This document shows positions 7,834 to 62,429 of a stretch of DNA of 64,000 nt, piece by piece. Source of the stretch: Zingiber officinale (taxonomy: Eukaryota; Streptophyta; Magnoliopsida; Zingiberales; Zingiberaceae); contig NC_055987.1 of NCBI RefSeq assembly GCF_018446385.1, positions 9,571,705 through 9,635,704 of the forward strand, written 5' to 3'. Within the stretch, counting starts at the first letter, position 1. Each line of letters opens with the position of its first letter. Position numbers and translations under genes: made by a program. The notes beneath the pieces are model-generated. The model saw only the letters and a program-made list of their open reading frames with translations, made no database searches and was not told the origin of the DNA.

Positions 7834-8059
7834 TATTTGAAGTCGTCTGTGGGAACTTCGCCTGATCTGGAATGTGAAGATGGACGATGCCGGAAAATTC
7901 TGTCATACTCATGACCTTGGTGAGTTTCGACGAGCATATCATATTCTCCTCATTCCACAGGTATTTGGGAGTCGAGAATTGAGTCAGATCCTTTACTGGT
8001 CGACAGATCAGTTTTTCCATTATGTTTTCTCTTTCAGTCAAAGGATTTGCCATAGTTTC

Positions 8060-9365
8060 CTGATTGAAGACTCTCGTGTCGATCGGCCGGGTCTATGCTA
8101 TACTTGAGCTACAGGCTCAACGTCGAAGACTCCCGTGCCGATCGATCGGGTGTATATTATATTTAAGCCATAAGCTCAATGTCGAAGGCTCCCGTGCCAA
8201 TCGGCCGGGTGCATATTATATTTGAGTCACAGGCTCAACGTCGAAGACTCCCATGCCGATCGGTCGGGTCTATGCTATACTTGAGCCACAGGCTCAACGT
8301 CGAAGACTCCCGTACTAATCAGCCGGATGTATATTATATTTGAGCAATAGGCTCAATGTCGAAGGCTCCCTGTGCTTAGTGGTCAGGTGTATGTTATATT
8401 TAAGCCACAACCTCAACGTCGAAGACTCCCGTGCCGATCGGCCTGGTGTATATTATATTTAAGCCACTGACTCTATGTTGAAGACTCCTATGCCGATCGG
8501 TCGGGTTTACATTATATTCTTGCCACAGGCTCTATGTTGAAGACTCCTGTGCCAATCGGCCGAGTTTATATTATATTAGAGCCACAGGCTCAATGTCGAA
8601 GACTCCCGAGCTGATCGGTCGGGTTTGAGTTATATTAGAGCCACATGCTCTAGAAGTCGAGTGGCGACTATAAACTCTTGAGTTAAAGACTCCCGAGCCG
8701 ATCGGCCGGGTTTGAGTTATATTAGAGTCACGAGCTCTAGAAGTCGAGCGGCGACTATAAACCCTTGAGTCAAAGACTCCCGAGCCGATCGGCCGGGTTT
8801 GAGTTATATTAGATCTACGAGCTCTAGAAGTCGAATGATGACTATAAACCCTAGAAGTCGAGCGACGACTATAAACCCTTGAGTCAGAGACTCCCGAGCT
8901 GATCGACCAGGTTTGAGTTATATTAGAGCCATGAGTTCTAGAAGTCGAGAGGCGACTATAAACCCTAGAAGTCAAGCGGCGACTATCAACCCTTGAGTCA
9001 AAGACTCCCGTGTCGAGCGGCCGGGTTTGAGTTATATTAGAGCAACGAGCTCTAGAAGTCGAGCGACGACTATAAACCCTTGAGTCAGAGACTCCACAGT
9101 CGATCGACCGGGTTTGAGTTATATTAGAGGCACGAGCTCTAGAAGTCGAGTGACGACTATAAATCCTAGAAGTCGAGTGACGATTATAAACCCTTGAGTT
9201 AGAGACTTCCGTGCCAAGCGGTCAGGTTTAAGTTATATTAGAGCCACGAGCTCTAGAAGTCGAGCAGCGACTATAAACCCTTGAGTCAGAGACTCCCGAG
9301 CTGATCAACTGGATTTGAGTTATATTAGAGCCACGAGCTCTAGAAGTTGAGCGATGACTATAAAC
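8060..9365 (+). repeat. Two successive tandem arrays in element B (about 60 bp, then about 87 bp)
   Basis: From about 8060 to 8640, around ten copies of a 59-60-bp unit with CCGATCGGCCGGGT, TATATTATATTTGAGCC and AGGCTCAACGTCGAAGACTC. From about 8640 to 9365 the unit grows to about 87 bp (spacing 8700 to 8787) by gaining AGAAGTCGAGCGGCGACTATAAAC. The longer unit keeps the CCGATCGGCCGGGT core, so one array grew out of the other. No unique spacers. Confidence 0.88.
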
Positions 9366-9720
9366 TCTTATCTCCCTCGTTCGGGGTCGAACGGTCTTCA
9401 CTGGTCTCAGACCAGCTTATCGGATCTCATATCTCCCCCGTTCGGGGTCGAACGATCTTCACTAGTCTCGGACTAGCTTATCGGATCTCATATCTCCCCC
9501 GTTCAAGGTCGAGCGATCTTCACTGGTCTCGAACCAACTTAGCAAATTCCCTTATCTCCCTCGTTCGAAGTCAAGCAATCTCCACGAGTCACAAACCAGC
9601 TTATTAGAGCGTCCATCTCCCCCGTTCAAGGTCGAGCTATCTCCAATGATCTTGGGCAGGAGTATCTCCACTGATCTCGGACCATCTCATCGCCACTGGT
9701 CTAGGACTGAAGTATCTTCA
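9366..9720 (+). repeat. Third tandem array in element B (about 61 bp)
   Basis: About five copies, spaced 61 bp where measured (9371, 9432, 9493), with ATCTCCCCCGTTCGGGGTCG, GATCTTCACTGGTCTCGGAC and CAGCTTATCGGATCTCAT modules. The last copies are degenerate. Confidence 0.8.
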
Positions 9721-10653
9721 CTGATATCAGGCCAGGGTATCTTGCGGGTTCCATGCCCTTCGATCGCATGAGCCTCGCACCCACTCGGGACATCAACATC
9801 GTGCTTTTCGCTCTCGCGATCCTCTCCCACTCGGCATCATCCCACTCAGTACTACTCAATTGTCGGGACAACATTTTATGATCGCCCAATCGACATTCTC
9901 TAGGCCGCTCGTTCAGCATTCTCGTAGTCGTCCGACCGGTATCGCTTAGCCGTCCGTTCGGCCACACACTTAAACTACTTGGCCGAACGCTCGACATTCT
10001 CTAGATGGCCTGGTCAGAAGTTTATGATCGACTGGCCGACATTCTCCCGGACGCTTGGTCGACACTTTCGTCGTGACCCGATCTTTATCTGTTGACCGTC
10101 CGCTTAGCCATTCTCTTGTAGTTTCTGACATCCTTGTGATCGCATGGCCGACATTTTACGGTCACCCGTTCGACATTTGGCTCGCCCGGTCTCATTTTAC
10201 GATTATTCAGTTGACGTTTTTTCGGTGGCCTGCTTGGCATTCTCCCGATCCATCAGTTAGCATCTTCTCGGTCGTACACTCGGTATTGCTTGCCAAGCGT
10301 CTCTCTTATCAGTGTCCTTCCGATTGCCCAGTCGACATCCTTCTGATTTCCCGGTCGACATCCTCGCGGTCACACGCTCGGCATCCTGCGCGTCACTCGG
10401 TCGACTATCATTTTACTCGTCGTTCACTTGACGTTTTTTCGTTCACTCCGCATCAGTCCGATTATTTCTCATGGTTCACTCGACATCACTACCATCTCTC
10501 GTATGACACCATTACTATAGCAGTCGCTTGCGAGGCACTATACGATGGGTTCCGCAATGTGACTCTGATATCGAGAGTGATTCAGCTTTCACGACAGACT
10601 ATCTAGTCAGTCGGACTTGCATCTCCTTCGACTAGATTTGAAGGGGAGACTTG
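9721..10653 (+). other. 3' interior of element B, no coding domain
   Basis: GC-richer sequence with scattered TCGGCATTCTC and GGTCGACAT motifs, probably very degenerate repeat. The 183-residue open stretch at 10055-10606 has no recognisable domain. The region ends at the purine-rich tract directly before the 3' LTR. Confidence 0.5.
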
Positions 10654-11893
10654 TGATGTAGATATACTCATGAGGCCCAAAGGTGATAAGGGAAAAGATG
10701 GAGGGCATTTTTGTCATTCCACATATTAAGGGTTTTGAGTTTACAAGGAGCATTTGTTCACGGAGGGGAAAGGGGAGGGTTTTTTGGCTGCCGCCACCGC
10801 CAAGCATAGGGGATTCTAATCCACCGCCAGGTAGAGGCCAACGACGCCACCGGTCGCACATGTCGCTGCTGCTGGTCACACACCTCCTCCATCGTCGCTG
10901 GTGAGCCCTTGCTCCCCTCCTCTGCTTCCCCTCTCCGCTGCCTCCTCAAGCGGTCGCCGGCGCATCTTGCCACTGCCGACGCCTCCAGCAGGCGTCGACA
11001 CCTCCAGCGGTCGCTGGTGCCTCCCGTCGCTGCCCCAGCAGCTGTCGACGCCTCCAGTAGTCGTCGGTGCCTCCCGCCGCAGTCGCAGGTGCCTCCAGCA
11101 GCTGCTGACACCTCCAACAATCGCTGGTGCCTCCCGCCGCTACCGCCGCTGCCTTCAGCAGTCATCGGTGCCTCCAGCAGCCGCCGACACCGCCTCCAGC
11201 GACAGCCGCTGCCTCCTCTAGCGGTCGCTGTCACCCTCCGGGCAGTCGTCGTTTGAGTGCTCAGGTTTGTCTACTCTGGCCTCCGAGTCGAGATGATGTT
11301 CGGCCTATGAGCTGATGTGATTCCGGCCATCGAGCCGTTGTATTTCGCTCTTCGTACCGCTATTATGATTGGGAGTTACTGGTATTATCCGGCTTGCGTG
11401 CCGTGCACCGGCTTGCAAGCCGCTGTGGTATCCCAGCCTAGGTGCCATTATCATATTTCAGCCTACGTGTCACATTTTGGATCTATGCTGCATCGGATTC
11501 CCTATGGTCACCCCTAGATCCAGTTCCTTAACTGACTCACACTCATCTACCTTTTACGGTTGCGACGTCTCGATCAGCATCACAACCAGCTCACTGATCC
11601 ATCCGAGGGTGCCCCCCCGGAGCCAAGGTACGCCACTATACTCATCTTGTATTTAATTAGTTAGTTGTTCTGCTATTATTCGGCTGCTTATATATTCATG
11701 GGGCCCGTCTCGAACATCGGGGTACCAGGGACCGGGGCAACCCGGTCACTGGTTACAGGTACTGTTGACCAGAGGACTTATGACGACATGGTCAACACAA
11801 AAGACAACTCACCATCCGGGTCATGGAGATGTGGTCAACATTCCAACCACGTCACTCCGGTAGTTCCGTCTTCTCAGATTCCCGACAAAATCA
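10654..11893 (+). repeat. 3' LTR of element B
   Basis: 1240 bp, starting TGATGTAGATATACTC and ending ACAAAATCA, followed by the CTATC duplication. It aligns throughout with 6538-7833, including the internal minisatellite. Confidence 0.88.
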
Positions 11894-12345: not shown

Positions 12346-12571
12346 TAAAGCTTTCACCCCTTCTTTCACGAATGAATTTCAATTATTTCGTTAAATTAGG
12401 AGATCAAAATTAATTGCTGTAGCTAATTTACAAATAACGGTATTCAAATGCGTTGAATAATTAGCTATCATTATATTTATCTTTTAAAGTTTAACTTAAT
12501 TTGTTATTTAATAAGATTATTTATGGCTAATTGGTTAATAAATTGTATAGATTGAAATTAAATTTAATATC
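12346..12571 (+). other. CACTA interior left of the nested insertion
   Basis: AT-rich leader of the CACTA element ending in the first copy of the ATATC duplication (12567-12571). It resumes at 24402. Confidence 0.7.
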
Positions 12572-12859
12572 TGATCCGGTGGTCAAGGCAGGGGACCCCA
12601 TTACGAGGGGTCCACGTCACGTGGAGGTCAAAGGGCCAGGGGGGCCCGCCGGAGAAGGGCGAGCCGATCGGACTCATGAGGAAAGGGTAGGCCGATCGGC
12701 CGACCAATTAACATCTGATAGTAAAAGGTGCCCTGATTAGGGTCGGGGTTCCGACGCTCAGTTTAAACAAAGGCTAAGAGCCGAGCGGAAGGCCTAAGAG
12801 AAGGCGGGACGTGAGAGGCGCACCGCCCGACCGGCGCAGGGAATGAGGGCCGTCCGGAC
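12572..12859 (+). repeat. 5' LTR of element A, first part
   Basis: 288 bp matching 23618-23905 with few differences. It is cut at the CGGAC duplication (12855-12859) made by the copia insertion and resumes after 18701. Confidence 0.9.
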
Positions 12860-14927
12860 TGTTGGTGCAACCTTGGTCAAGGTTGACCTAGTTGACCCGA
12901 CTCGAGTTGACCTAACTCGAATTGTATTTTAATGTTTGACGAGAACAGAAGAGTTGTATTTTGATGGGAGATTGTTGGTACAACCTTAGGTCAAGGTTGA
13001 CCTGACTCGAGTTGACCTGACTCAAGTTGTATCTTGATGTTTGACAAGAACAGAAACTTGGGAGGTTGTGGGTGCAACCCTTGGTCAAGGTTGACCTGGT
13101 TGACCCGAGGTGAGTTGACTTGGCACGGAAAAGTCCAAGCAGGGAGCTTGGCACGGGAAAAGTCCAAGCAGGGAGCTTGGCACGGGAGAAAGTCCAAGTA
13201 TGGAGACTTGGCACGAAGAAGTTCAAGTATGGGAACTTGGCAAGTGGAAGTCGGAGAGGGCTCGGTAGCTCGTTCTCCGGACTATGGTCAGAGAGGGCTC
13301 GGTAGCTCGTTCTCTGGACCGGATGTGGAAGTCGGAGAGGGCTCGGTAGCTCGTTCTCCGGACTAGGTCAGAGAGGGCTTGGTAGCTCGTTCTCTAGACC
13401 GGACGAAGTCGAAGAGGGCTCGGTAGCTCGTTCTCCGGACTAGGTCAGAGAGGGCTCGGTAGCTCGTTCTCTAGATCAGGAAGGCAGATGGAAAATCCTG
13501 GTGAGTGAAGCCAGGTGAAAATCCTAGTGAGTGAAGCCAGGTGAAAGTCCTGGTGAGTGAAGCCAGGCAGATGGAAAGTCCTGGTGAGTGAAGCCAGGCA
13601 GACGGAAAAGTCCTGGTGAGTGAAGCCAGGTGAATCCTGTAAGTGAAGCCGGTGAAAACCTAGTGAGTGAAGCTAGGTGAAAGTGAAAGTCCCGTGAGTG
13701 AAGCCAGCCCTGGTGAAAGTCACAGTAAGTGAAGCCAGGAGGAAAGTCTGGTGAGTGAAGCCGGGCAAGGAAAAATCTAGATGGATCAAGGGCGATCGGA
13801 CATCCGTGTTGTGAAGGTCAAGTAGGTCAAGGGTGACCGGATACTTGCGAAGAGAAAGTCTAAGTGGGTCAAAGGATTGACCGGACACTTGGTAGGGAGT
13901 CTTAGCAGCAAGGGTGACCGGATGCTAAGCATGAGATACCAATAGATCAAGGTTGACGGATATTGGTTTGGAAGGCGTGGGACTTGGTTTGGGCAAAAAC
14001 CAGAAATGATCGATCGGTGGATCGATCGTGATATTGGTTATCGATCGATGCGGTGACCGATCGGTAACAACGATATCTCTTGTATGTTATCGATCGGTCT
14101 GCGGACCGATCAGAGGGAGAAGAAAGAGGAGGATCGGTCTGTGGACCGATCAGGAGACGATCAGAGAGTTGGGCGAGTTTTCTGTGAAGAGTGCTGATCG
14201 GTCTGGAGACCGATCAGCATAGGTTCTGATCGGTCCCCAAGACCGATCAGGGAGGCCTCGGACCGATCAGGGTGGAGCATGATCGGTTCAGGTATAGCCG
14301 TTATGAGTGACAACGGCTATCTCCGTCTTCTTCGCTGTCTTCTTTGCAGTGCAGGTTATAAAAGGAGATCAAGGGCTTCTACAGCAGGTCTTCTTCTTCT
14401 TCCTCTCCTCAGCTGCTACCTCTTGCTTCTGTAAGAGCTTGCTGTTGCTGAGCTCTTCTTAGTTGAAGCTTCGCGTGAGCTTCCTCGGCTGGGGTCTCCA
14501 ACAGTTGCTGCTGTATTTGGCCCGTGAAGTTGCTGCTTCATCAACAGCCGACGAGAAGGCAAGATTGTTTGTTTTTACATTCATATTGTTGCTTCTTCTT
14601 GTGTATTCTTGTACTCCTATTCTTGCTGGTGCAAGAAAGATTGTGGCGAGGTTTCTCCACCCAGAAAGAGTATATATATATTAGCCGGTTCTCCGGGGAC
14701 TCATCCACCGATGGATTAATAGGCTTCGTCCACCTTACGGACACGCCGAGGAGTAAGAGTATATCTCCGAACCTCGTTACATCGACGCGTGTTGAGGTTT
14801 GATTTCTCCGCTTTCGTTTCTATTATTTTTATTTTCCGCTGCGCTAACGTCAACTTGTAGAAAGAAACGAAGATTTGGGGTCGGCTATTCACACCCCCCT
14901 CTCTAGCCGCGACCATCGATCCTAACA
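12860..14927 (+). repeat. 5' LTR of the SIRE-like copia element, with internal minisatellites
   Basis: 2068 bp, TG...CA. Internal arrays: AAGTCCAAGCAGGGAGCTTGG-like units (13120-13240), GAGAGGGCTCGGTAGCTCGTT units (13250-13470), GGTGAGTGAAGCCAGG units (13490-13770), and GATCGGTCTGNGGACCGATCAG palindromes (13985-14285). The 3' part (14320-14927) includes TATAAAAGG at about 14357, a likely TATA box, and is very close to 18060-18696. Confidence 0.88.
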
Positions 14928-14929
14928 AG

Positions 14930-14941
14930 TGGTATCAGAGC
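14930..14941 (+). other. Primer-binding site (initiator tRNA-Met type)
   Basis: TGGTATCAGAGC, two bases after the LTR end. This is the standard copia primer-binding site complementary to the initiator tRNA-Met. Confidence 0.93.
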
Positions 14942-14989
14942 GAAGTCGCTCTTCATTGGATCAACACCCGGGGGAGCACGAGCTAGAGA

Positions 14990-16450
14990 ATGGAGTTATT
15001 TGGAGAAGACGTCACAATTCCACCTTTCTACGATCGCGACGACTTCGCGTTTTGGAAGGTAAGAATGAAGTACTTTCTTATGACTAACCTAGAAAATTGG
15101 AGGTGTGTGCAATTAGGTTTTACTCCTCCATTGGATAAAGAAGGAGAACTTTTGAAGAAGAAGAAGTGGACGAAGGAGCAAATCCACCAATCAACCATCA
15201 ATGATGAGGTAACGAAAATCATTGAATTTTCTTTACCTAATGATGTTTTGTGTAGGATAGGTGGATATAACGATGCCAAGGAGTTGTGGAATAACTTGGC
15301 AAAGTTCCATGAGGAGAACTCCACTTCAAGTCATGAAGAGGAGTCAAGTGAGCCAAGTAGCTCACATCATGGAGGCATGGATTTAGAGGTTGAGGGCTAC
15401 TCAACATCTAAGGAAGAAGAGGAGGAGAGTTCCTCTTCAAGATCGGAGCAAGAAGAAGAAGCTTCTATCTCCGGAAGGGATGAAGAAGAGAGCTCACATC
15501 CATCCTCAACCCTAGGTAACTCAAGCCATTTAATTTCAAATAAATTACACATAATGTGCTTTGAGTGTAGGGAATTTGGGCATTACAAGAGTAAGTGTCC
15601 AAAAGGGGTTAGGAAGACTCCACCGGCGCCAAAGGTCAAGGAAGCCGGAGTCCCGACACGCAAAGGCAAGGAGCACGTGGTGTGCTTCCAACGCAAGCGA
15701 AAGGGACACTATAGGAGTCAATGTCCGAGGGGGAGGCAACCTCACAAGGACAAGAGACCGAGCACGTCAATAGGGGGAGCTAAGGCAAACCCTAAGGTAA
15801 CATTTAAGTCTCATTCTTGCAATAAGACACATGCTAGTAGGTTTGTTACAATTGTTAATAATGATAAGAATGTTAACTTTAGGAACCAATACATGAGCTT
15901 AGGAGCCAAACATGTTAACCTAGATAAGGATAATACTAGAAATGTCAACCCTAAAATTAACCCATCTAAGGCTAAGGAAAATCTAGGTAGAAATCCTAAA
16001 TCATCTAGACATATGCCTAGGAATACCTCAAAGAAAAATGATAAATTAAAGCTTGAGGTATTAGAGAAAGAAAATCAAGTCTTGAGGTCAAGACTTGACT
16101 CTCTAGAAAAGGCTCTTGAGGATTTGACTCTAGAGTCTAGGGGTCAAAAACCCAAGTCCAAGGACAAGGAAGGTTTGGGTCACAAACCTAAGTCCCAAGT
16201 GGTCAAGCCCACTTACCATGATGTTCCATTCGATTATGGAACAAAACCTAGGACTAGGAAGACCATCACCAAGGTCACAAGGGGAGTCACCCCTAGAGTT
16301 GATCTTGATGAGTCCCAAATGACCAAGGCTTCAAAGCCTAGGAGGGTCATTAGGAGGGTTGCTAGGGAAGTCATTCCTAGTGAATATTTAGTGAACCCAA
16401 TGAGCTCAAATAGGTATTGGGTTCCTAGGAGCGTGATTTCATCACGCTAG
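14990..16450 (+). CDS. Gag-like protein of the SIRE-like copia element (fossil)
   Basis: A 486-residue open frame starting 49 bp after the PBS. Residues 10-45 (PPFYDRDDFAFWKVRMKYFL) match the gag N-terminal region of plant copia elements. Residues 110-180 are Ser/Glu-rich and acidic. A CCHC zinc knuckle (CFECREFGHYKSKC) lies at about 190-203, with a second knuckle-like segment about 40 residues on. A coiled-coil-like stretch rich in Lys, Leu and Glu is near 345-390, followed by a basic tail. In the family this protein forms the particle shell. No polymerase follows, so the element depends on others or is dead. Confidence 0.85.
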   Translation: MELFGEDVTIPPFYDRDDFAFWKVRMKYFLMTNLENWRCVQLGFTPPLDKEGELLKKKKWTKEQIHQSTINDEVTKIIEFSLPNDVLCRIGGYNDAKELWNNLAKFHEENSTSSHEEESSEPSSSHHGGMDLEVEGYSTSKEEEEESSSSRSEQEEEASISGRDEEESSHPSSTLGNSSHLISNKLHIMCFECREFGHYKSKCPKGVRKTPPAPKVKEAGVPTRKGKEHVVCFQRKRKGHYRSQCPRGRQPHKDKRPSTSIGGAKANPKVTFKSHSCNKTHASRFVTIVNNDKNVNFRNQYMSLGAKHVNLDKDNTRNVNPKINPSKAKENLGRNPKSSRHMPRNTSKKNDKLKLEVLEKENQVLRSRLDSLEKALEDLTLESRGQKPKSKDKEGLGHKPKSQVVKPTYHDVPFDYGTKPRTRKTITKVTRGVTPRVDLDESQMTKASKPRRVIRRVAREVIPSEYLVNPMSSNRYWVPRSVISSR

Positions 16451-17564
16451 ATGAGTTAGGGTGTGCCAACCTTACTTGAATAGGTAGTTAACCTAATCAT
16501 GGCAAAAGGTGGCACTTTAGGAATTTTCAAGGTGTGATCAAGCCTTGAAAATGAAATTAAGAATTATTCCTAAGGTGATTAGAATGTGCCAACTACATTT
16601 GAGGAGTTCTCTTAGGTCAGTTTAATTGGCACATAGTGATCTAAACATCCTTGGTATATGATTTTAGGTCTATTACTCTTAGGAATATAGAACCTATGGC
16701 AAAATGATCAAGATTATCAAAAATGGCAACTAAGGCTAGAATTAAGTATTTTCTATACCTTTATATGTTGTTTGCCATATATTGATCGTCATATGTCATG
16801 TCATGACATCATACTTAATTTATGATCATTTAAAATGTCATGATAATGCTTAGGTTAGTTAAATGTCATGCTTTATTTAAGTTTCATACTTTATGCCATG
16901 ACATCATGACATTGGCACATGTTTTTACTTATGATATTATATTATGCCATGTCATCATCTCTTGCAGTTATAATCAATTAAATTGGTTTAAGGACAAAAA
17001 CATAATTTGATATAGAGATCAAATTGTTGTTTAGAAAATGCATGAGAACCTAGCCTAAGACGACCTAAACCCATATCTCACATCAAAATTGACTTGGATG
17101 TGTTTGATACACCTTAGATGTGTGTGAGATATTAGGATGATGAGTTAGGATCAAGGTGCATAGTTCTTGTACCTAGATGAGCCTAATTCTAATTGGAGGA
17201 TCATAGGGAAAGCTTGTGTACAAGTCATGTACATTTAGCCCTAAGATTATGGTCCTAAATTGAAGGGTTTAAAATCATTTCAAAATTGATTTGAAAAACC
17301 TTGATGAAGCTTTTCTAGTGATAGCATTCATCATTGAGCAAGTTGATACAAAGTTGAACTAAACTTGAGCTATTTCAATGTTTTTCAAACGTTGTGTCAA
17401 GATTTAAAAATGGAAGTTATTTTCATAGAAAATTATTTTTCCGTGATAATATATGTTATGAGGATTGTATCCTCAAAATTTTACAATTTTTGAAATTTTA
17501 TGTAATTTTTGAGAGGTTTCTGAATTTCGGAAGTAGAAAAATCAGAAACTTCTGATATCAGAGT
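16451..17564 (+). other. Interior of the SIRE-like element without recognised coding domain
   Basis: AT-rich, with repeated TATGTCATGTCATGACATCAT-like words around 16790-16960 and no protease, integrase or RT motif in any frame I inspected. Confidence 0.6.
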
Positions 17565-18696
17565 TGGGGACCGGATACTTGGCACGAAGAGAAAAGTCTA
17601 AGTGGGTCAAAGGGATTGACCGGACACTTGGTAGGGAGTCTTGGCAGGTCAAGGGAGTGACCAGATGCTAAGCATGAGATACCAATAGATCAAGGTTGAC
17701 CGGATATTGGTTTGGAAAGCGTGGGACTTGGTTTGGGCAAAAAACCAAGAGCTGGATCGATCAGTGGATCGATCCAGTGATACACTGGGTTATCTGATCG
17801 GTCTGGTGACCGATCAGTAACCAAACAGTATGCTACTGTATGTTATCTGATCGGTCAGAAAGCGAACAGAAAGCAAAGAGAAAAGGAGGGGATCGGTCTG
17901 TGGACCGATCAGGAGACGATCAGAGAGTTGGGCGAGTTTTCTGTGAAGAGTGCTGATCGGTCTGGGGACCGATCAACATAGGTCCTGATCGGTCCCCAAG
18001 ACCGATCAGGGAGGCCTCGGACCGATCAGGGTGGAGCCTGATCGGTCCAGGTATAGCCGTTATGAGTGACAACGGCTATCTCCGTCTTCTTCGCTGTCTT
18101 CTTTGCAGTGCAGGTTATAAAAGGAGATCAAGGGCTTCTACAGCAGGTCTTCTTCTTCTTCCTCTCCTCAGCTGCTACCTCTTGCTTCTGTAAGAGCTTG
18201 CTGTTGCTGAGCTTTGCTTAGCTCTTCTTAGCTGAAGCTTCGCGTGAGCTTCCTCGGCTGGGGTCTCCAACAGTTGCTGCTGTATTTGGCCCGTGAAGTT
18301 GCTGCTTCATCAACAGCCGACGAGAAGGCAAGATTGTTTATTTTTACATTCATATTGTTGCTTCTTCTTGTGTATTCTTGTACTCCTATTCTTGCTGGTG
18401 CAAGAAAGATTGTGGCGAGGTTTCTCCACCCAGAAGGAGTATATATATATTAGCCGGTTCTCCGGGGACTCATCCACCGACGGATTGATAGGCTTCGTCC
18501 ACCTTACAGACACGCCGAGGAGTAGGAGTATATCTCCGAACCTCGTTACATCGACGCGTGTTGAGGTTTGATTTCTCCGCTTTCGTTTCTATTATTTTTA
18601 TTTTCCGCTGCGCTAACGTCAACTTGTAGAAAGAAACGAAGATTTGGGGTCGGCTATTCACACCCCACTCTCTAGCCGCGACCATCAATCCTAACA
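17565..18696 (+). repeat. 3' LTR portion of the SIRE-like copia element
   Basis: Matches the later part of the 5' LTR (from about 13835) almost base for base in many stretches and ends CCTAACA. It is shorter than the 5' copy. Confidence 0.85.
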
Positions 18697-19197
18697 CGGA
18701 CGACGCTCTTCGTCCAGCCGGCCGGACAGACGTCCTGGCCGGTGGTGGGTAAATAGGAACAGGAACATCTTCTGACAGCCGTCGAGTCGTATGGTTAGGC
18801 CATACTCCTAATCTGACAACGGGGTGTCCTGTTGTCCCATCGAAGGCGCGATGGGACTGTAGCAGTATGGCGTCAGGTAAGCTCTCTGACAGACACACAC
18901 CGAGGTATGGGCTGCGGACACGCACACGCCTCGGTGGGCGTGTAGGAGCTCTTCCACCGCTCTATATAAAGAGCCGCAGACTTCGTCGGAGGTACGCGAT
19001 ATACAACCTTTGGAGCTACTTTTTCCACCACCTGCTTACCTGACTTGAGCGTCGGAGGGTCGCCGCCGGGAACCCCTTCCCGGCCCGACTTCTGTGCAGG
19101 TTCGTCGGAGCTTCTTGCCACCAGTCGAAGAGCCACGACAGCAGTCGAAGAGCGCCCCGTGCCCAGCGTCCGCTGATTCAGCGTTCGGACAGGATCA
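18697..19197 (+). repeat. 5' LTR of element A, second part
   Basis: Begins with the second CGGAC copy, then 496 bp matching 23906-24401. It includes TATATAAAGAGCCGC near 18962, a likely TATA box, and GACTTGAGCGTCGGAGGGTC near 19040, a motif shared by all the Tat-like LTRs in this window. Ends GGACAGGATCA. Confidence 0.9.
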
Positions 19198-19221
19198 AAT
19201 TGGCGCCGTCTGTGGGAACGC

Positions 19222-20455
19222 TCCTGCATCCGAGCGGAAGACCGTCGAGCTCCGATGTTAAATATCGAGAGACGAGCCGGCGTCTATAAACGTCCGAGCG
19301 GAAGACCGTCGAGCTCCGACGTTAAATATCGAGAGACGAGCCGGCGTCTATAAACGTCCGAGCGGAAGACCGTCGAGCTCCGACGTTAAATATCGAGAGA
19401 CGGGCCGGCGTCTATAAACGTCCGAGCGGAAGACCGTCGAGCTCCGACGTTAAATATCGAGAGACGAGCCGGCGTCTATAAACGTCCGAGCGGAAGACCG
19501 TCGAGCTCCGACGTTAAATATCAGGGGAGCCGGCGTCTATAAACGTCCGGCGGAAGACCGCCGAGCTCCGGCGTTAAATATCGAGAGCCGCGGCGTCTAA
19601 ACGCGTCGAGCGGAAGACCGCCGAGCTCCGACGTTAAATATCGAGAGACGCCCGGCGAAAGCGTCGGCGGAAGACCGTCGAGCTCCGACGCTAAATATCA
19701 AGAGACGAGCCGCGTCTATAAACGTCCGAGCGGAAGACCGCCGAGCTCCGGCGTTAAATATCGAGAGACGAGCAGGCGTCTATAAAGCGTCGGCGGAAGA
19801 CCGTCGAGCTCGGACGTTAAATATCGAGAGAGCAGCGTCTATAAGCGTCAGTGGAAGACCATCGAGCTCCGACGTTAAATATCGAGAGACGGCCGGCGTA
19901 AGACCGTCGGCGGAAGACCGTCGAGCTCCGGCGTTAAATATCGAGAGGCGAGCCGAAAACGCCCGGCGGAAGACCGTCGAGCTCCGATGTTAAATATCGA
20001 TAGACGAGCCGGCGTCTATAAACGTCCGGCGGAAGACCGCCGAGCTCCGGCGTTAAATATCGAGGCGAGGCGTCTATAAACGCTCGGCGGAAGACCGCCG
20101 AGCTCGGCGTTAAATATCGAGAGACGAGCCGCGTCTATAAACGTCCGCGGAAGACCGCCGAGCTCAGGCGTTAAATATAGAGGCGCGGCGTCTATAAACG
20201 TCCCGGCGGAAGACCGTCGAGCTCAGGCGTTAAATATCGAGAGACGAGCGGCGTCTATAAACATCTGAGCGGAAGACCGTCGAGCTCCGGCGTTAAATAT
20301 CGACGAGCCGGCGTCTATAAACGTCCGAGTGGAAGACCGCCGAGCTCGGACGTTAAATATCGAGCCAGCCGGCGTCTATAAACGTCAAGCGGAAGACCGC
20401 CGAGCTCGGCGTTAAATAGACGAGCCGACGTCTATAAACGTCCGAGCGGCTCGCA
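19222..20455 (+). repeat. Tandem array of about twenty 64-bp units in element A
   Basis: Unit modules: GAGCGGAAGACCGTCGAGCT, CCGACGTTAAATATCGAGAG and ACGAGCCGGCGTCTATAAAC. The first four spacings are exactly 64 bp (19232, 19296, 19360, 19424). From about 19510 on, units vary and many are shortened. The array lies directly after the PBS, a position known for amplified repeats of Retand-type elements. No unique spacers. Confidence 0.95.
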
Positions 20456-20815
20456 TTGCGAAAATCTAGCGAAAACCCCTTTGAGGTAAGGCGCGAAGCA
20501 AAAGATGGTTAATCGGAATTAAAAATGCGAGCAAGTGAACGAGTGATGTTTGCGCGTCGAGCGGCTACTTAATTGCGTGGCGAAAGATGTTATTGAAGGC
20601 AGCCGGCTTGGGTCCATGTTAGAGCGTCAAGCCGAGCGGAGGAGTTTTAAAGAACACTTCACACATGACGAAAGAAAATTTTCTTCCCAAAACAAAGGTG
20701 ACAAGAACAGAAAGATGGTCTATTTACGCCAAATACTAGGCAAACAAAAGAGGTTACAGCGAAAATCAGTCTTGCCGAACGGCGAAGATACAAAAAAATG
20801 GATAAAATACACTCC

Positions 20816-21463
20816 TCATGCGTCAAAATCAAAAAGGGCATCCGGAATGGCGCCCATCACATTAGCCAGATCCTCTGGGGGGATGGTCAGCTCGGCGGGA
20901 AGGTGACCTTTAGTCTTCAAATAATCTACCGCCGCCTTAATCGCTTCTTCGAAGGTGAGGGAAATCTTGTCGGTGAACTTCTCCCCGAAGTCGTCCGAGC
21001 GGACAAATGCCTGCCTCACTTCGTCAGAACGAGCCGACTCCCCATCCTGATACTCTTTAAGCGCGGCTTGGGAAGCATCGTTGGCGGCCTGGAGATCCTT
21101 TAAATCCCCTTCAAATTTGAGTAAATCGGCCGAGCGGCCCTCCTTCTCGGTGGCCAGAAGGGCATCCAGATCCTTGATGCGTTGCTCTAGCCCTCTGATC
21201 TCCACCTTCATTCGGTCCATGTCATCGATGGCCTGGCGCTTCCGGGTGGTCGCTGTCTTGATCTCCTTATCTCGTTGTTTGATCATCGCTTCGAGCCGAA
21301 TGACCTTGCTCGCTAGATCGGAAGCTCGTTTCCGTTCGGCTTCCAGTAATTTTTTGGCCTTCTCCAGAGCGGCCGTCGACTGTCGGTTGTCCCCCGCGGC
21401 CTTGAGTTTTTTCAATTCATCCTCCAGCTTGGCCAACCGATTGCTAACGGCAATTTGCTCCAC
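20816..21463 (-). CDS. Antisense ORF of element A, coiled-coil part
   Basis: Minus-strand open stretch of 215 residues. It is rich in Lys, Glu and Leu with heptad-like spacing (LEDELKKLKAAG, LEKAKKLLEAERK), giving a long coiled coil over about residues 1-140. The final part is mixed, with FTDKISLTFEEAIKAAVDYL and an acidic end. An AG acceptor-like site lies just upstream (TTTGCTCGTAG, read on the minus strand), so it may be the last exon of the antisense gene that begins near 22958. Such coiled-coil tails accompany Transposase_28-type proteins in plant Tat elements. Function unknown. Confidence 0.6.
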   Translation of the reverse strand: MEQIAVSNRLAKLEDELKKLKAAGDNRQSTAALEKAKKLLEAERKRASDLASKVIRLEAMIKQRDKEIKTATTRKRQAIDDMDRMKVEIRGLEQRIKDLDALLATEKEGRSADLLKFEGDLKDLQAANDASQAALKEYQDGESARSDEVRQAFVRSDDFGEKFTDKISLTFEEAIKAAVDYLKTKGHLPAELTIPPEDLANVMGAIPDALFDFDA

Positions 21464-21498
21464 CCAGTTCTACGAGCAAAAGTGAACAGGTTAAAAAC

Positions 21499-22245
21499 TT
21501 AATTCAAATACACGAACAAAGAAAAAGAGCATACCCCGGTGGCCTGTTGAAGGTTGATGTCGCCGAGCTGCCCGGGAGTCATCGCTTTTATTCGGCGCCG
21601 AGCGTCCTCCCAAGCTTTTGCAAGAGGGCCCGTCAAGGTGATCTGCTGTTCGGGGACCACTGGCCGATCAACAGCAGCCATGTATTCCTCTGAGGGGAGG
21701 CGCAGGACGGTTTTAATTAAATTCGGGCCGCTCGGCTCGCCCTGAGAAGCATCGGCCTTACCGGATGGCCCACCGGTGGACGAGGAAGGAAGCTCGCCCA
21801 AACGCCTGATACGGCGCAGAGTTCTTGAAGGGCTGGACGGCGACACCTCAGAGCTTGCCCTCGGAGAGCCATGTGGGGTCGGGGTACTCTCTAGGGAAAC
21901 CGTCCCAGACAACACCGGAGCATCCGCGCCCCGCTCGGGCTGTGGCTCATCATGTGGAGTTGAGGCAGATGCAGATTCCGGTCGTCGGCGCTTCCGAGTG
22001 AGTAGCGGAACATCATCGGCCGAACGGCCTTCCACCTCGGCTTGGGTAGAAGGTTCTGTGCCGCCTGCTGCCTCGTCGTGGGAGGTAGCAGCTGCTAAGG
22101 CTTCAGGGGCATCCTGAGTCCACTCACCTAATTCGCCGGTCGGATCGGCTGGATCAAGGCCCTGCTCGGCGACCTCCTTGTTCTTCACCGCCTCAATCTG
22201 AGCGGCTTTCAATTTGAGCTTCTCGGTCGCCTTAGCGCGCCACAT
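21499..22245 (-). CDS. Antisense ORF of element A, low-complexity middle part
   Basis: Minus-strand open stretch of 248 residues, rich in Ser, Pro, Glu and Ala, with basic clusters (RKRRRP) that could act in nuclear entry (inference). Candidate splice sites sit at both ends: TTTCTGCAG before it and GGTATGC after it, read on the minus strand. No enzymatic domain recognised. Confidence 0.55.
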   Translation of the reverse strand: MWRAKATEKLKLKAAQIEAVKNKEVAEQGLDPADPTGELGEWTQDAPEALAAATSHDEAAGGTEPSTQAEVEGRSADDVPLLTRKRRRPESASASTPHDEPQPERGADAPVLSGTVSLESTPTPHGSPRASSEVSPSSPSRTLRRIRRLGELPSSSTGGPSGKADASQGEPSGPNLIKTVLRLPSEEYMAAVDRPVVPEQQITLTGPLAKAWEDARRRIKAMTPGQLGDINLQQATGVCSFSLFVYLN

Positions 22246-22385
22246 AACTTCAGCTGCAGAAACAAAGATTAAATCAATTATAACAAAAGAAAAAGGAGGG
22301 ATGAGAATCGCTTACTCATGCTGTAGGGCAGATCGGCCGGGGTAGAAGATAGGCCAAATATATACATTACTCCCGGAAGGAGCAG

Positions 22386-22958
22386 CTAGTCAATGTGATA
22401 GCGCTGACCCACCAACCGCTCGGCCGCATGAAGGTAGGCCGCATCGCCTCTGAATTTGCCGAGCTCCGGTTGCGCCGGCATCGCCGTCTGCCACTTGGTA
22501 CGAAAAGTTGGCAGCTCAGGAAAACGCACATAGAAAAAGTGCTCCTTCCAATGTTTGTTGGAGCTCGGCATACTATCAAAAAGGACGAAACCTATCCTAG
22601 ACTGGAAAATAAAGGTACCCCACTCGGCTTGCTTGGGATAAAAAAAGTAGTGAAAAATCTTAGGGTCAAGGGGAATGTTATTCAGTTTAAAAAGGACTAT
22701 CACTCCGCTCAATAGCCTAATGGAGTTAGGGACTACTTGGCCGAGCGGAATGCGAAAATAATTGCTGACTTGTAAGAAGAACTTGTGGGGTGGAAAACGC
22801 AGCCCGGCCAAAAATTGGTCTCGGAAAAAAAGAACTGTGCCGGACGGCGGTTCATGAGGCCGATCGTCCGGTGTGGCTAACACTATTTGGTGGTCGGTCG
22901 GCAGATCATAGGTTCGAGTGAGGCGCAAGGCGTCCTCCTCGTCGAACCGGCTTTCCAT
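22386..22958 (-). CDS. Antisense ORF of element A, Transposase_28-like N-terminal domain
   Basis: From the Met at 22958 the minus strand reads a domain resembling the plant 'putative gypsy type transposon' family (Pfam Transposase_28). Features are LPTDHQIVLATPDDRPHEPP, then a 'GTVLFFRDQFLAGLRFPPHKF' type block, a FRIPLGQVVPNSIRLLSG block and WGTFIFQSR. These are the usual order and spacing of that family. The open frame extends upstream to 23303 but that part looks like leader. A GTAAGC donor-like site follows near 22315. Extra antisense ORFs are documented in Tat/Retand elements; their role is unknown. The reading frame looks largely undecayed. Confidence 0.72.
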   Translation of the reverse strand: MESRFDEEDALRLTRTYDLPTDHQIVLATPDDRPHEPPSGTVLFFRDQFLAGLRFPPHKFFLQVSNYFRIPLGQVVPNSIRLLSGVIVLFKLNNIPLDPKIFHYFFYPKQAEWGTFIFQSRIGFVLFDSMPSSNKHWKEHFFYVRFPELPTFRTKWQTAMPAQPELGKFRGDAAYLHAAERLVGQRYHID

Positions 22959-23617
22959 GGTCGAATACCAAAGACCCGGAGCACCGCCGGTCGGCTGTGA
23001 GGTATTGGTTATGGTATAAGGCCAGGGATGGACGTGTGATGGAAGGGGGGAGAAATAAAAACAGGGAAAGAATGCGGGATGATGGAAGAAATAGCTAATA
23101 GAGAGAAAAAAGGAAAGGCGGCAAGGAAAAGGAATCCTTACGGGCAAAGAAGATGATCGAAGGGGGCTGTAGAGTCGTCGGAGAGCTGAAATGCAAGGTC
23201 GCCGGAAAAAAGGAACAGAGGGATGGCTGGAGACGATAAGGTCGAAATGCGGCGAAGAGCTGGGGTCGGGAGCTTTATAAGGGCGGCCGCGATCAATTTC
23301 CACCGTCCGATCCAGGTCATCGATAACGAGGTCATCATCCAGCCGTTCATTTCAAACGGCGGCTGTCCCATCGGATGTGACACCACCGCCATACCCTGAC
23401 AAGAGAAAGGTAGCCACGTGTCAGCAAGTTACGGGTTAACGCACGTGGTTGACGGAAGCTTCGGCATAAATTCCAAGGCACGGGCAAGATATAGTCGAAC
23501 GGCTGAACATCCATTAACTCGTCCGAGCGGACTAAGATATTGATCGTCACTCGATCAGATCGGCAGTCTAGTCAGTCGGACTTCGCCTCCTTCGACTAGA
23601 CTTGAAGGGGAGGCAAG

Positions 23618-24401
23618 TGATCCGGTGGTCAAGGCAGGGGACCCCATTACGAGGGGTCCACGCCACGTGGAGGTCAAAGGGCCAGGGGGGCCCGCCGAAG
23701 AAGGGCGAGCCGATCGGACTCATGAGGAAAGGGTAGGCCGATCGGCCGACCAATTAACATCTGATTGTAAAAGGTGCCCTGATTAGGGTCGGGGTTCCGA
23801 CGCTCAGTTTAAACAAAGGCTAAGAGCCGAGCGGAAGGCCTAAGAGAAGGCGGGACGTGAGAGGCACACCGCTCGGCCGGCGCAGGGAATGAGGGCCGTC
23901 CGGACGACGCTCTTCGTCCAGCCGGCCGGACAAACGTCCTGGCCGGTGGTGGGTAAATAGGAACAGGAACATCTTCTGACAGCCGTCGAGTCGTATGGTT
24001 AGGCCATACTCCTAATCTGACAACGGGGTGTCCTGTTGTCCCATCGAAGGCGCGATGGGACTGTAGCAGTATAGCGTCAGGTAAGCTCTCTGACAGACAC
24101 ACACCGAGATATGGGCTGCGGACACGCACACGCCTTGGTGGGCGTGTAGGAGCTCTTCCACCGCTCTATATAAAGAGCCGCAGACTTCGCCGAAGGTACG
24201 CGATATACAACCTTTGGAGCTACTTTTTCCACCACCTGCTTACCTGACTTGAGCGTCGGAGGGTCGCCGCTGGGAACCCCTTCCCGGCCCGACTTCTGTG
24301 CAGGTTCGACGGAGCTTCGTGCCACCAGTCGAAGAGCCACGACAGCAGTCGAAGAGCGCCCCGTGCCCAGCGTCCGTTGATTCAGCTTTCGGACAGGATC
24401 A
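23618..24401 (+). repeat. 3' LTR of element A
   Basis: 784 bp, TGATCCGGTGG...ACAGGATCA, preceded by the purine-rich tract and followed by ATATC. About 17 mismatches to the 5' LTR by eye, most of them transitions. Confidence 0.93.
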
Positions 24402-24406
24402 ATATC

Positions 24407-25992
24407 GATCTCTAATTTAACGATACAAATAAATTATTTTACTTGTTAAATTATTAAGTGAATTTCGTTAATAATGTTATTCGTAAAATAAATTAATAAA
24501 TAAATTTTGTAATTTAAGTGTGGGTATAACTTTAATTTTGTGCATTTTTAACTACTGAACTTTAAATTTAGTCACAAAATTGAGACCGAATAAAATATGC
24601 AGTCGCTATTATCTCCCCAAAAAAAACCCCGTCTCAAGCCCTAAATCCCGAACTTTTCTTCCCATCCTGTCTCCGCGCGATCCCCTTCTCCCGTCTCCGT
24701 CCGATCTCCTTCTGTCGTTGTGATCTCTCACACGTGATCACTCTCTAGCCGACGATCTCCTCCGGCGTTAGCTTTTCTCCAGCGCGGGTAAACATCTATT
24801 CCTTCACTCCTCCTCGGTGCCGCCTCCTCACCGTAAACGCTACCTCCGACCTTTCCTTGGTCGGCCCAAGCTTGGCCGGCCTGAGCTCGGCATTTTCTTG
24901 GCTGGCCTGAGCTCGGCCTTTTCTTGACATGTACATTCCTTGGCTGGCCTGAGCTCGGCCTTTTCTTGGTCGGCCTTCCTTAGCCGTAAAGATTAGTTAG
25001 GGTCTGCCTTCATGTTTTCGACATAAGAGACGGTGTAGATTGCTCGCCCTCCTCTATGTGCTACTATGCAAAGTTATGAAAATACAATAATCAGAATGCA
25101 CAAATTCTGAGTTTCTCTTATTTATGATCCTATGATGAGAACATATTTGGACTTAGACAATATATATAGCGTAAAACTGTAGTAAAACTCATTCGAGTAG
25201 AAGGTGTTGGCCCTACACTACCAACATTGGTAAAGAGCATTGCTTTGCCCATTGCAACTCTCGTATGATTTGGGTACATTTTTTTTATTGATATCCTTCG
25301 CTATATTTGTTTGTCAATTACTCAAGAGAGCCTTCATTATTCATAGATGAATAAATTGAGGAATTTTTCCCTATGTCTAGTATATAATTATCTAACTATT
25401 AATTACTTCAAGTCATTAGTGTATTTTTTCCTTACCAACTTTAACTTAATGTGGTCACTAGGCCACTAACATACTTTGCTCTTGGTTAAGGAGAATCTCT
25501 CTTGCATTGGAGAATAAACCCTTACATCAGCTTTGTTTATTCATGAAATTGCTCTCTATAATCCCAAATCTTCCCACAGTTTCAAGATAGCGTGGCAAGT
25601 AAAATACAAGTATTTGACACCCTTGACAATACCATGATTGCAATTCTATAGAGCAAAATGCTAAGTAATTTTCTATAAAAGGATGAGTCCTGTACTTGCT
25701 GTGACATCATTTTAGAATAGAAATTACTTTTTGCTTAACCAACTTCCTCTCTTTTCTTATTTCAAGTATACTGCATTGTCTGATATCTTATTTCAGGTAT
25801 GTGCATTGTCTAAATTTATGGCACATTTTTTTTTATTATTTCCTTTTTAGTGGTATTGTATTTTTAGGTATATTTCATTTAATACTAACATTGATTACTA
25901 TTAATAGAATTCTATTATGTTTTATTGATAGAATTGTTATATATCTTTATCTTTACATGTTTAAATAATATTGCAAAATTTTTTAGGCTACA
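24407..25992 (+). other. CACTA leader and probable 5' UTR/intron of the transposase gene
   Basis: Resumes the CACTA element after the ATATC duplication. A CT-rich, GC-richer stretch (24600-24850) resembles a first untranslated exon and is followed by AT-rich intron-like sequence to 25992. Repeats of TTGGCTGGCCTGAGCTCGGC occur around 24860-24980. No coding domain. Confidence 0.5.
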
Positions 25993-28900
25993 ATGTATAT
26001 AAATAAAGCTTGGATATACAATAGGTTAGAAAATGGATTTATTACCGATGAATTTTATGCTGGAGTTGAAGAGTTTGCCAACTTTGCTAAGCGTCATCCA
26101 GAATGTTTAGATGGAGACAAGTTAAAATGTCCGTGTAATCATTGCAAATGTAGAAATACAACTTTCCGTGATGAGGATACTGTGAAAGTACATATATGTA
26201 AAAAAGGATTTGTTCCTAATTATTACAACTGGTACTGTTATGGAGAACCTTATGTGTTTGAGCTAATTGGATATTCTGGTGCTTCGTCATCTGTCTCTAT
26301 TGGTCAACCAAAATTATCATTTAATGACAATACAATGCAATCAATGGTTTACGATACAATGAATGTGTTTGATCATAACAATGTTGATGAAATGCCAACA
26401 CTTGAAGTACAACATCTATATGACATGTTAAAGGCTAGTGAAAAAGAATTATGGGAAGGCATTCCTTCTAGTCATTCTCAACTATCAGCTACTGCAAAGT
26501 TGTTGAATATTAAGGCGGAACATCATTTCTCAGAAAGATGTTACGATGACATTTGTCAATTAATGTCAGAGTTGCTCCCTTTTGATAATATAATGACTGA
26601 TAGCTTCTACAATACAAAGAAATTGGTTAAATGTTTAGGTTTACCTGTTGAAAAGATAGATTGTTGTATAAATAACTGTATAATCTTTTGGAATGAAGAC
26701 AGTGAGCTAGTTGAGTGCAGAATATGTAATCACCCTCGTTATAAGCAGCATAGTCGCATATTAGGGAAGAAGATTCAAAAGTTACCATGGAAAGTAATGT
26801 ACTACTTCCCGTTAACTGCTAGATTGCAACGCTTGTATGCATCTGCCGCAACTGCAAGCCATATGAAGTAACATCATGAGCATGCACATGAAGGAGATTT
26901 AATGTGTCATCCCTCTGACTCACCTGCATGGAAACATCTTGATACAATATTTCCCTCTTTTGCAATGGAACCACGTAATGTAAGATAGAGACTTTCAGCA
27001 GATGGGTTCCAACCATTTGGTCAATCTGGACAACAATATTCATCTTGGCTAGTTATATTAACATCATATAATTTACCGTCATGGATGTGCATGAAAGATG
27101 AATTCATGTTCCTTACTGTGCTTATTCCAGGTCCAACGAATTCGAAAGATAAGATATATATTTTCTTACAACCTTTGATTGCTGAACTGAATGAATTATG
27201 GAATGTAGGGTTTGAGACTTATGATATTGCAAGTAAAAATAATTTTATCCTACATGTTGCTTTATTATCGACGATTAGTGATTTTCTAGCATAGTCAATG
27301 TTGTTAGGATAGAGCACCGCTGGTAAATTAACATGTCCACATTGCATGACAGAGTCTGATGTAATTTCATTACCTTGCAGTGGGAAGGTATCTTGGTTTG
27401 ATAATCATCGAAAATTTTTACCAGTTGAGCACCATTTCAGGTGAAATAGGAAAGATTTCATTAAGAATAAAATGGTAAGAAAACTTTCACCATCAATTAA
27501 GTCAGGTGAAGAAATCATTGAGGACATAGATAACTATGGATTTGTACAAGTAACTCAAGTTGGTTCTGATGAATTAAATAAGTACATTGTTCGGCAATGC
27601 AAGTGTGGTTGGAAAAAAAGAAGCATATTTTGGGAGTTGTCATATTGGAAGTATCTATTCATTCAACATAATTTAGATGTGATGCACGTGGAGAAGAACT
27701 TTTTTGATAATATTTTTAACACTGTGATGAATGTTATGGGCAAAACTAAAGACACAGTAAAATCACGTGAGGAACTGAAACAATTGGTTAACAGAACTGA
27801 GTTGCATCAGAATGAAACAACTGGTAAATTCCCAAAGGCTTGTTATACATTGGATAAAGAAAGTAAGCAGATATTGTGTAGTTGGTTGAAAGAAGTAAAA
27901 TTTCCTGATGGATATGCCTCGAATATGGCTCGATGTGTGGATATGAACAAATTGAAAATGTTTGGAATGAAGAGTCATGACTGTCACGTGTTCATGCAAA
28001 GACTTATTCCAATAGCTTTCCATGACTTACTTCCTAATAATGTTTGGCAAGCACTAACAGAATTGAGTCTATTTTTCAAAGATTTGACATCGAGAGTGAT
28101 TATGACATCAGAAATGCTACAACTAGAAACAGAAATACCTTTGATCCTATGTAAACTTAAGCGTATATTTCCACCCAGCTTTTTTGATTCAATGGAACAT
28201 CTACCTGTTCATTTATCATATGAGGCACGACTAGTTGGTCCTGTGCAGTATAGATGGATGTATCAATTTGAACGATTTTTAAAAAAATTAAAGAATAATG
28301 TTCATAATAAAGCAAGAGTTGAGGGGTCAATATGTAATGCTTATCTGGTTGAAGAAGCATCTTCTTTTTGCTTATATTATTTTGCTGATACTGTAAAACT
28401 ATACATCGCAAGTGTCCTTGAAATTCTTATGATTCTCAACCAAGAGATGCTATCTATTTTCAAATTTCATGGTAGGACAATGGGTGCATCTAGTAGTAGA
28501 TGGTTAAATCCAAATGAGTATCATGCAGCAAGAACATACATACTTCTGAACTGTGACGAGGTCAAACCCTACTTAAAGTGAGTTAACTTTTAATTTAGAT
28601 GCATTTATCCTTCTATGTAATATTTGTTATACCATATGCAATTTATAATTACATTCTTTAATAGATTGTACGAACAACAACTGCAACTGGAAAATTCATC
28701 AATAAGTGCAAGTGAGGTAGAGAAGAAGATAGAGACGGAATTTGCACTTTGGTTTGAAATCTATGTAAGTTAAAGAATAATTTTTTTCATAATATGTATG
28801 TTATAATCAATTTATATCATAACTATTTTTTTAGGAAAAGGATCGTAGAATTTCAAATGTGCAAGATGAAAGGATAAAGAATATTGCATCAGGACCTCTT

Positions 28901-34310: not shown

Positions 34311-34407
34311 CAGGTCGAGGCAGAGAAGAAGACGACGACGAGGAGGAAGAAGAAGAAGTACGTGAGAGCGCGAGAAGATAAGGAGAAGAGCGACTGAGAG
34401 AGGAAGA

Positions 34408-62414: not shown

Positions 62415-62429
62415 AGTTTATCTCTTTTT

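Follow-up and report, generated by a model that had tools for sequence, protein, structure and literature searches.

A ginger LTR retrotransposon that lacks gag-pol and keeps a tandem array and an antisense Transposase_28 gene

The element considered here lies at positions 12572–24401 of a 64,000-nucleotide stretch of the ginger genome (Zingiber officinale, contig NC_055987.1; the whole stretch is called the window below). It is a long terminal repeat (LTR) retrotransposon without gag-pol. Its internal region (19198–23617) holds, in this order, a primer binding site (PBS), a 64-bp tandem array, a minus-strand gene with a Transposase_28 domain and a polypurine tract (PPT). This pol-less layout is real and recurrent, and it is a derivative of a known lineage. 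We consider it likely that the element belongs to a family of Retand type (Tat, Ty3/gypsy) as a non-autonomous member with an internal deletion, that it was mobilised in trans, and that its antisense product, which is under constraint in the family, acts on the elements' DNA. The most surprising result of the analysis is an octamer, CCGAGCGG, dispersed through the family.

The deleted form and its relatives

The original prediction, made from the letters of the window, had described a young element with LTRs about 2% different, a perfect target duplication, a tandem array and no gag-pol. Its borders and content hold (Table 1), with the correction that the left LTR is not continuous but split, upstream of its TATA box, by a 5.8-kb copia-type insertion. 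Across the rejoined LTR (12572–12859 plus 18702–19197 against 23618–24401), 17 of 784 aligned sites differ (13 transitions and 4 transversions). With 1.3e-8 substitutions per site per year, this divergence of 2.2% would date the insertion to somewhat under a million years ago. Only about 1 kb of internal sequence remains once the array and the antisense gene are subtracted, and there is therefore no room for gag-pol; none of the six sense open reading frames (ORFs) has a Pfam match at E 0.01. Neither the PPT regions nor the array unit show anything remarkable when folded as RNA (z of -0.56, -1.20, and -0.10).

The layout recurs, a possibility that had been raised, at other loci of the genome (3.09 Gb in 211 contigs, the one genome searched). 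The leader past the PBS, which reads TCCGAACGG in the gag-pol-bearing relative L016, enters the array sequence TCCGAGCGGAAGACC in the focal copy, and a short repeat is found at this join (TCCGAACGG in the leader, TCCGAGCGG in the array). A 37-base pattern across the PBS and the array, with up to 3 mismatches, was matched at 16 places and at none in a reversed control; 11 of the 16, the focal one among them, end in array letters, and the remaining five do not. All 10 non-focal join loci contain the 64-bp array (84–96% identity over about 255–280 bases). Minus-strand matches to the antisense gene were obtained at each of the three loci that were probed further, and are diverged (33–63% amino-acid identity over 24–190 residues, best E per locus 2e-9 to 1e-13).

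Related copies were also sought with the 784-bp LTR, for which the best 40 of 7105 first-look candidates were scored; these are 87–100% identical to it, 39 of them over all 784 bases. They include eight same-strand LTR pairs, all of which were retrieved (L009–L016). Three of these copies bear gag-pol, and their LTRs are 94% (L016), 90% (L015), and 87% (L012) identical to that of the focal copy. L015 and L016 share the focal PBS and encode gag, reverse transcriptase (RT), RNase H, RVT_3, and integrase zinc-binding domains, together with a protease-like match below the cut-off; of the two, only L016 has an integrase core match. The domain order in L016 is RT_RNaseH (289–386), RVT_3 (421–540), and Integrase_H2C2 (630–680), and the same order is spread over two ORFs in L015. 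We take RVT_3 in both to be the second RNase H (aRH). Past pol, these two copies carry the same 64-bp array and then three antisense exons (89.9–94% identity to the focal ones), and it is their post-pol gap that the focal one resembles most (82–84%, versus 72–79% in L009–L011). The third gag-pol copy, L012, has only part of exon 3. L013 and L014 are shorter deleted copies, with break points other than those of the focal copy. Two further pol-bearing copies, L038 and L041, were read in part.

Another pol-less form is represented by L009, L010, and L011 (about 6.95 kb), which contain a 5' fragment of gag, arrays and the antisense gene. With a probe from the region specific to the L009 type, the best 40 of 3696 first-look candidates were scored (about 89–100% identity over 641–691 of 691 bases) and 20 were retrieved. 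None of these 20 matches the gag middle, RT, integrase, or pol end, matches shorter than a quarter of the probe being excluded. The antisense gene is close to the focal one in 6 of them, partial in 1, and represented by a diverged Transposase_28 exon in 6; none was found in the other 7. A perfect 5-bp target duplication flanks 14 of the 16 family copies with both ends readable (L009–L014, L017, L019, L022, L025, L027, L029, L030, and L033); in L035 four of five bases agree and in L018 none. The duplications of L023, L031, and L032 are unreadable, and the other retrieved copies have no LTR pair or are cut at one end. The gag remnant of the pol-less copies looks constrained too, to judge from a ratio of nonsynonymous to synonymous substitution rates (dN/dS) of 0.106 over shared codons (22 copies, 231 pairs) and from the lack of in-frame stops in the aligned codons of 20 of the 22. 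A truncated ORF for the Gag N-terminus is present in L009, L011, and L017–L036, with 143–144 codons in 12 of 22 and 32–233 in the others.

These forms suggest a route by which the focal layout could have arisen. A gag-pol parent of the L015/L016 kind would have lost everything from just past the PBS to the start of the post-pol array, by recombination or by template switching during reverse transcription at the short repeat common to leader and array. What would be left is LTR, PBS, array, intron-bearing antisense Transposase_28 gene, PPT, and LTR. In L040, RT is joined to the array at the CCGAGCGG present at L016 position 3523, and in L037 gag is joined to the array at a different place from L040. 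The focal, L040, and L037 joins differ, so that at least three separate deletions stop in the array. The simplest mechanism for them would be recombination at short homologies or template switching. Copying of the pol-less form would presumably depend on proteins supplied by gag-pol relatives that have its LTR and PBS.

The antisense gene and the selection on it

The three minus-strand ORFs of the focal element can be joined into one gene of three exons and two short predicted introns, and they apparently form a single spliced gene. The prediction of a minus-strand region with a Transposase_28-like domain, a low-complexity middle and a coiled coil is thus retained in its content, its ORFs now being read as exons. 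Exon 1 matches Transposase_28 (PF04195) with an E of 1.6e-8 and 35.1 bits (cut-off 26.2), and exon 3, judged by eye, looks like a coiled coil. The exons have a GC content of 0.51–0.61, versus 0.32 in both predicted introns, their phases are compatible across the introns, and GC varies with codon position as in coding sequence. Alternative in-frame GT-AG joins are also possible in the focal gene. The chosen sites of intron 2 are kept in all five covering relatives of the first-fetched set and those of intron 1 in five of six, the acceptor being changed in L014; the antisense ATG and the TATA box are kept in 7/7. Four of the six conserved residues named in the available text of a survey of Retand elements fit at the published spacing, the PN pair (two of the four) having been used as the anchor (PMC11963269). 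Exon 1 has no confirmed relatives in viral contigs or Genome Taxonomy Database (GTDB) genomes, and a sequence search of the PDB gave no match at E 1. The antisense orientation would let the gene retain its introns through the RNA stage. By analogy with Grande, the product may be a nuclear coiled-coil protein with its own promoter near the 3' LTR, and it would probably act on the elements' own DNA.

Constraint on this protein at the level of the family is a solid conclusion from the codon comparisons. The mean dN/dS is 0.226 (range 0.162–0.365) for 15 pairs of six copies over about 670 codons, 0.171 for the 36 pairs of nine pol-less copies, and 0.310 for the single pair L015–L016; the values of 0.17–0.23 are far from the 1 that had been named as refuting a kept gene. 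When the change after insertion, as estimated from the LTRs, is subtracted in the ten closest of 28 pol-less pairs, dN falls between -0.011 and +0.007 and dS between 0.044 and 0.117. The description of the focal ORF as little decayed is right in that one long gene can be read, and has to be amended for an in-frame TAG in exon 1. The same codon is open in all six other copies that cover it. Because its antisense gene carries this stop and its 5' LTR is interrupted, the focal copy is probably inactive now.

A number of observations weigh against a mobilised family with a working antisense product, beginning with these two defects of the focal copy. An autonomous partner with the same LTR had been proposed, and gag-pol relatives do exist, but none of the three (L012, L015, and L016) is intact: stops lie between the gag-pol frames of L012 and L015, L015 lacks the integrase-core match and part of the pol end, and the integrase core of L016 is in a different frame from its RT. 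The join shared by the ten loci could go back to a single old deletion, or the short repeat could have been the site of several. These loci were covered by 501 bases each, with 1 kb further in for three, and were identified by join and array sequence, the target duplications having been read for other pol-less copies. Further points weigh against selection acting in the pol-less copies. The LTR and antisense trees disagree, the pol-less L010 grouping with L015 and L016. Among the best 40 matches to the antisense gene of L017, five close genes were read, and two of them sit in pol-bearing copies; of the other three, one is in an L009-type pol-less copy and two are in copies with other deletions into the array. 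Finally, seven of nine pol-less antisense genes carry 1–5 stops, three positions being common to two or three copies, so that either genes already broken were passed on by copying or mutation struck these sites more than once.

Since some of the closely related antisense genes belong to pol-bearing copies, selection in the latter could be the source of the constraint. The antisense gene would then be a passenger in pol-less copies, selected only where gag-pol is present and retained elsewhere by deletions that end in the adjacent array and by recombination. We hold this to be a serious possibility, somewhat short of an even chance. It would accommodate the mixture of close genes, the discordant trees and the shared stops, as well as the 7 of 20 pol-less copies with no antisense match and a second element of the window (6538–11893), in which no antisense gene is detectable. 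What it explains less readily is an antisense dN of about zero in the ten closest pol-less pairs, and the diverged gene kept by all three join copies that were probed. The original interpretation is thus partly supported: the proposal that the gene may be kept for helping the element or its partner is consistent with constraint in the family, and is weakened by the pol-bearing copies and by the stops in pol-less genes, the focal one included. Two other explanations fare worse. The antisense RNA rather than the protein could matter, through double-stranded RNA and control by small interfering RNA, a role raised as possible in the available text of a review (PMC7264820); the conservation of the intron sites and a dN/dS of 0.17–0.23 across some 670 codons both point to a protein, and make this improbable. 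Still less credence is due to the loss of gag-pol from a full-length element at this very locus, with no family meaning in the layout: internal deletions with other break points do occur (L013 and L014), but ten other loci share the PBS-array join and largely refute it.

Table 1. Features of the focal element and of the insertion nested in it (window positions)
Feature	Position	Strand	Remarks
Target site duplication ATATC, left	12567..12571	.	Perfect, pairs with right copy
Left LTR, part one (288 bp)	12572..12859	+	97.9% identity to 23618–23905
Nested copia-type insertion	12860..18696	+	Separate from focal element; TGTTGG..CTAACA ends, duplication CGGAC
Left LTR, part two	18697..19197	+	Starts with CGGAC duplication (18697–18701)
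Primer binding site TTGGCGCCGTCTGTGGGA	19200..19217	+	PBS probe 92–100% in those relatives matching it
Deletion join at TCCGAGCGG	19229..19237	+	Leader straight into array
64-bp tandem array, 20.1 copies	19229..20449	+	In L015 and L016 between pol and antisense gene
Antisense exon 3, coiled-coil-like by eye	20816..21469	-	Ends in stop codon
Predicted intron 2, 65 bp	21470..21534	-	GTATGC..CGTAG
Antisense exon 2, low-complexity part	21535..22253	-	
Predicted intron 1, 62 bp	22254..22315	-	GTAAGC..TGCAG
Antisense exon 1, Transposase_28 domain	22316..22958	-	In-frame TAG at 22386–22388
TATAAA, candidate antisense promoter	23274..23279	-	In 7/7 relatives covering it
Polypurine tract	23604..23617	+	PPT-side stretch common to second element at 10602–10648
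Right LTR (784 bp)	23618..24401	+	
Target site duplication ATATC, right	24402..24406	.	

A dispersed octamer

The octamer CCGAGCGG, first spotted by eye, was subsequently put to a test that took in all 8-mers. It occurs 8 times in 20450–23617, where 0.22 occurrences are expected and no 8-mer exceeded 5 in 200 shuffles. In the gag-pol regions of L016, L015, and L012, which had played no part in its discovery, it occurs 14, 13, and 15 times (0.21–0.25 expected) and is the commonest 8-mer of each. Shuffling of synonymous codons gave 0.39 octamers for the 6 of L016 pol, 0.51 for the 5 of L015 gag, 0.36 for the 6 of L012 gag, and 0.62 for the 6 of the pooled focal antisense exons, the observed number being reached in 0 of 1000 shuffles in each case, and in 0–46 of 1000 for the 12 other single ORFs or exons. 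A purely codon-driven origin is ruled out by these shuffles. Outside the arrays of 28 loci, the octamer is the commonest CCGNNCGG in all but one, where it shares first place; the loci are related and some of their borders approximate. It is absent from the 52.6 kb of the window outside both elements, which says little alone because only 0.28 occurrences are expected there by base composition. In a scan of 55 segments of 3168 bases (20 shuffles each, excluding any that touch the focal array), 8-mers with six or more spaced sites were found only in the focal region with its overlapping segment, in the arrays of the second element and in the repeat-rich 59–63 kb. The dispersal of the octamer across the family, in gag-pol and antisense exons as well as elsewhere, is thus statistically strong and mechanistically open.

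One way to account for it would be self-recognition of the VANC kind, in which a Transposase_28 protein dimerised by its coiled coil binds the near-palindromic CCGAGCGG (more generally CCGNNCGG), coats its own elements and counters their silencing or licenses them. If this were so, the pol-less forms would keep exactly what is required, namely the arrayed binding sites and the binder's gene. We regard this as unlikely. The octamer provides a concrete candidate DNA target for a binding experiment, with single-base variants, CCGATCGG, and CCGTTCGG as comparison sequences. Local bias of mutation, conversion or recombination, with the octamer bound by nothing, comes close to an even chance in our estimate. 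The focal and L040 joins lie at octamer copies or a one-base variant, which fits such a bias, as do the mere 7 exact copies in the 20-unit focal array. Orientation cuts both ways: plus and minus sites are equally numerous in gag-pol (21 of each), which speaks against a bias and suggests that DNA rather than RNA is concerned, whereas outside the arrays of 23 pol-less copies it leans to plus (192 versus 48 minus), which fits a bias, does not point to DNA and lowers the self-recognition reading. Bias sits less easily with sites whose flanks look unrelated and which fall in all three codon frames of the antisense exons. Nor would it readily account for the retention of exact octamers, at 64–79% on 5–7 sites per reference, versus 37–43% for controls with the same CpG spacing and 50–56% for other GC-rich octamers with two CpGs.

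Some other arrays of the family carry different dyads in place of the octamer. A link of the motif to all the deletion joins was rejected, as only those of the focal copy and L040 coincide with it or with a one-base variant; no motif was seen at the joins of L010, L012, L013, L014, and L037, and near that of L009 there is a similar sequence.

Known systems and neighbouring features

With RVT_3 taken as aRH, this domain lies between RNase H and integrase in L016 and L015, the focal copy having no pol, and an antisense Transposase_28 ORF precedes the 3' LTR in the focal copy and in both relatives. The gag-pol of the autonomous form is missing from the focal copy, which is filed as a non-autonomous derivative. 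We call the family Retand-type from its domain order and antisense gene rather than from an RT tree. The published comparisons that follow draw on the available text of each source. An aRH between RNase H and integrase is described for Ogre and Retand, and Transposase_28 in 23% of Retand elements (PMC6317226). Antisense Transposase_28 genes in Retand elements are thus already known. In a survey of the lineage, 97% of Retand clusters were reported to have antisense TRP28 ORFs, with predicted DNA binding, and about half to have arrays, the function of the ORFs being given as unknown (Vicient 2025, PMC11963269). An antisense Transposase_28 ORF together with an array before the 3' LTR is also the layout of L015 and L016. 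However, that survey lists each antisense ORF by itself and its available text makes no use of the word intron, whereas in the ginger family they read as one constrained gene with introns. Its elements were picked by an intact RT domain, and a pol-less copy could therefore not appear in it (PMC11963269).

An antisense gene between pol and the 3' LTR is likewise known from Grande of maize (gene 23), RIRE2, and Silene Retand, which have been reviewed with a call for a search for antisense and spliced transcripts; for the Grande gene, an own promoter and a nuclear protein are reported (PMC7264820). Compared by description, these antisense genes differ in lying downstream of pol. Dasheng resembles the ginger form as a non-autonomous element whose putative gag-pol partner, RIRE2, is in the same genome, but a kept antisense gene is unmentioned in the available description on which this comparison rests (PMC5473765). 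Two features of the Dasheng type recur in ginger, namely LTRs common to gag-pol copies of the same genome and a deleted form at several loci. TR-GAG and other single-protein TR elements are LTR elements that also keep one gene; they retain gag, RT-RH, RH, or INT-RT (RH, RNase H; INT, integrase), whereas the focal form keeps an antisense accessory gene (PMC9784723). In the open-access literature on PF04195/Transposase_28, no pol-less element keeping only the antisense gene was found among the matches listed.

Of working systems that pair a motif with a protein, VANC offers the nearest model. In VANDAL21, a motif of 8–9 bases is dense over the element that encodes the accessory protein VANC, often in tandem repeats (PMC5735166). 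VANDALs are DNA transposons, and their motif is mainly non-coding and in one orientation (PMC5735166). The ginger family shares the dense motif, but its octamer, a candidate binding site, lies also in coding sequence and occurs on both strands in gag-pol. The role of the Retand antisense Transposase_28 gene is an open question in the papers cited here. Ginger offers gag-pol copies, pol-less copies, and copies stripped down to array and antisense gene in one genome, so that the purpose of this gene becomes testable.

The element nested in the left LTR has a PBS-like TGGTATCAGAGC and a gag-like ORF, for which the copia-gag and zinc-knuckle matches are weak and below the cut-off. Its right LTR lacks about 970 bases of the 5' part, and its LTR differences cluster at 13831–14206, with few past 14300, as if its two ends were derived from different copies. 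Inverted fragments at 3416–4392 resemble its LTR, the start included.

The second LTR element of the window (6538–11893) also lacks gag-pol. It has a CTATC duplication, an LTR divergence of 0.14 (Kimura two-parameter distance, K2P), a degenerate copy of the focal PBS with arrays past it, and a PPT-side stretch about 91% like that of the focal copy. Its arrays and the focal array share a single 22-column block (score 27, reached by 1 of 300 shuffles, best of six comparisons), which is weak evidence that they are related.

Elsewhere in the window, ORFs matching Transpos_assoc, DUF4218, and DUF4216 (25987–29287) presumably belong to a CACTA-type element. A copia-type RT fragment lies at 48969–49928 (RVT_2, E 1.1e-15). 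Likely host genes are found at 34366–35280, with an ORF for a NAM domain (NAC-type) at 34366–34869, and at 50848–53531, encoding an ABC transporter with ABC2 membrane domains. Diverged direct repeats at 59868–62960 surround a predicted tRNA-Val gene (61727–61801), and a tandem pair of 129-bp units at 59149–59406, 98.4% identical, contains a predicted tRNA-Cys gene in each unit.

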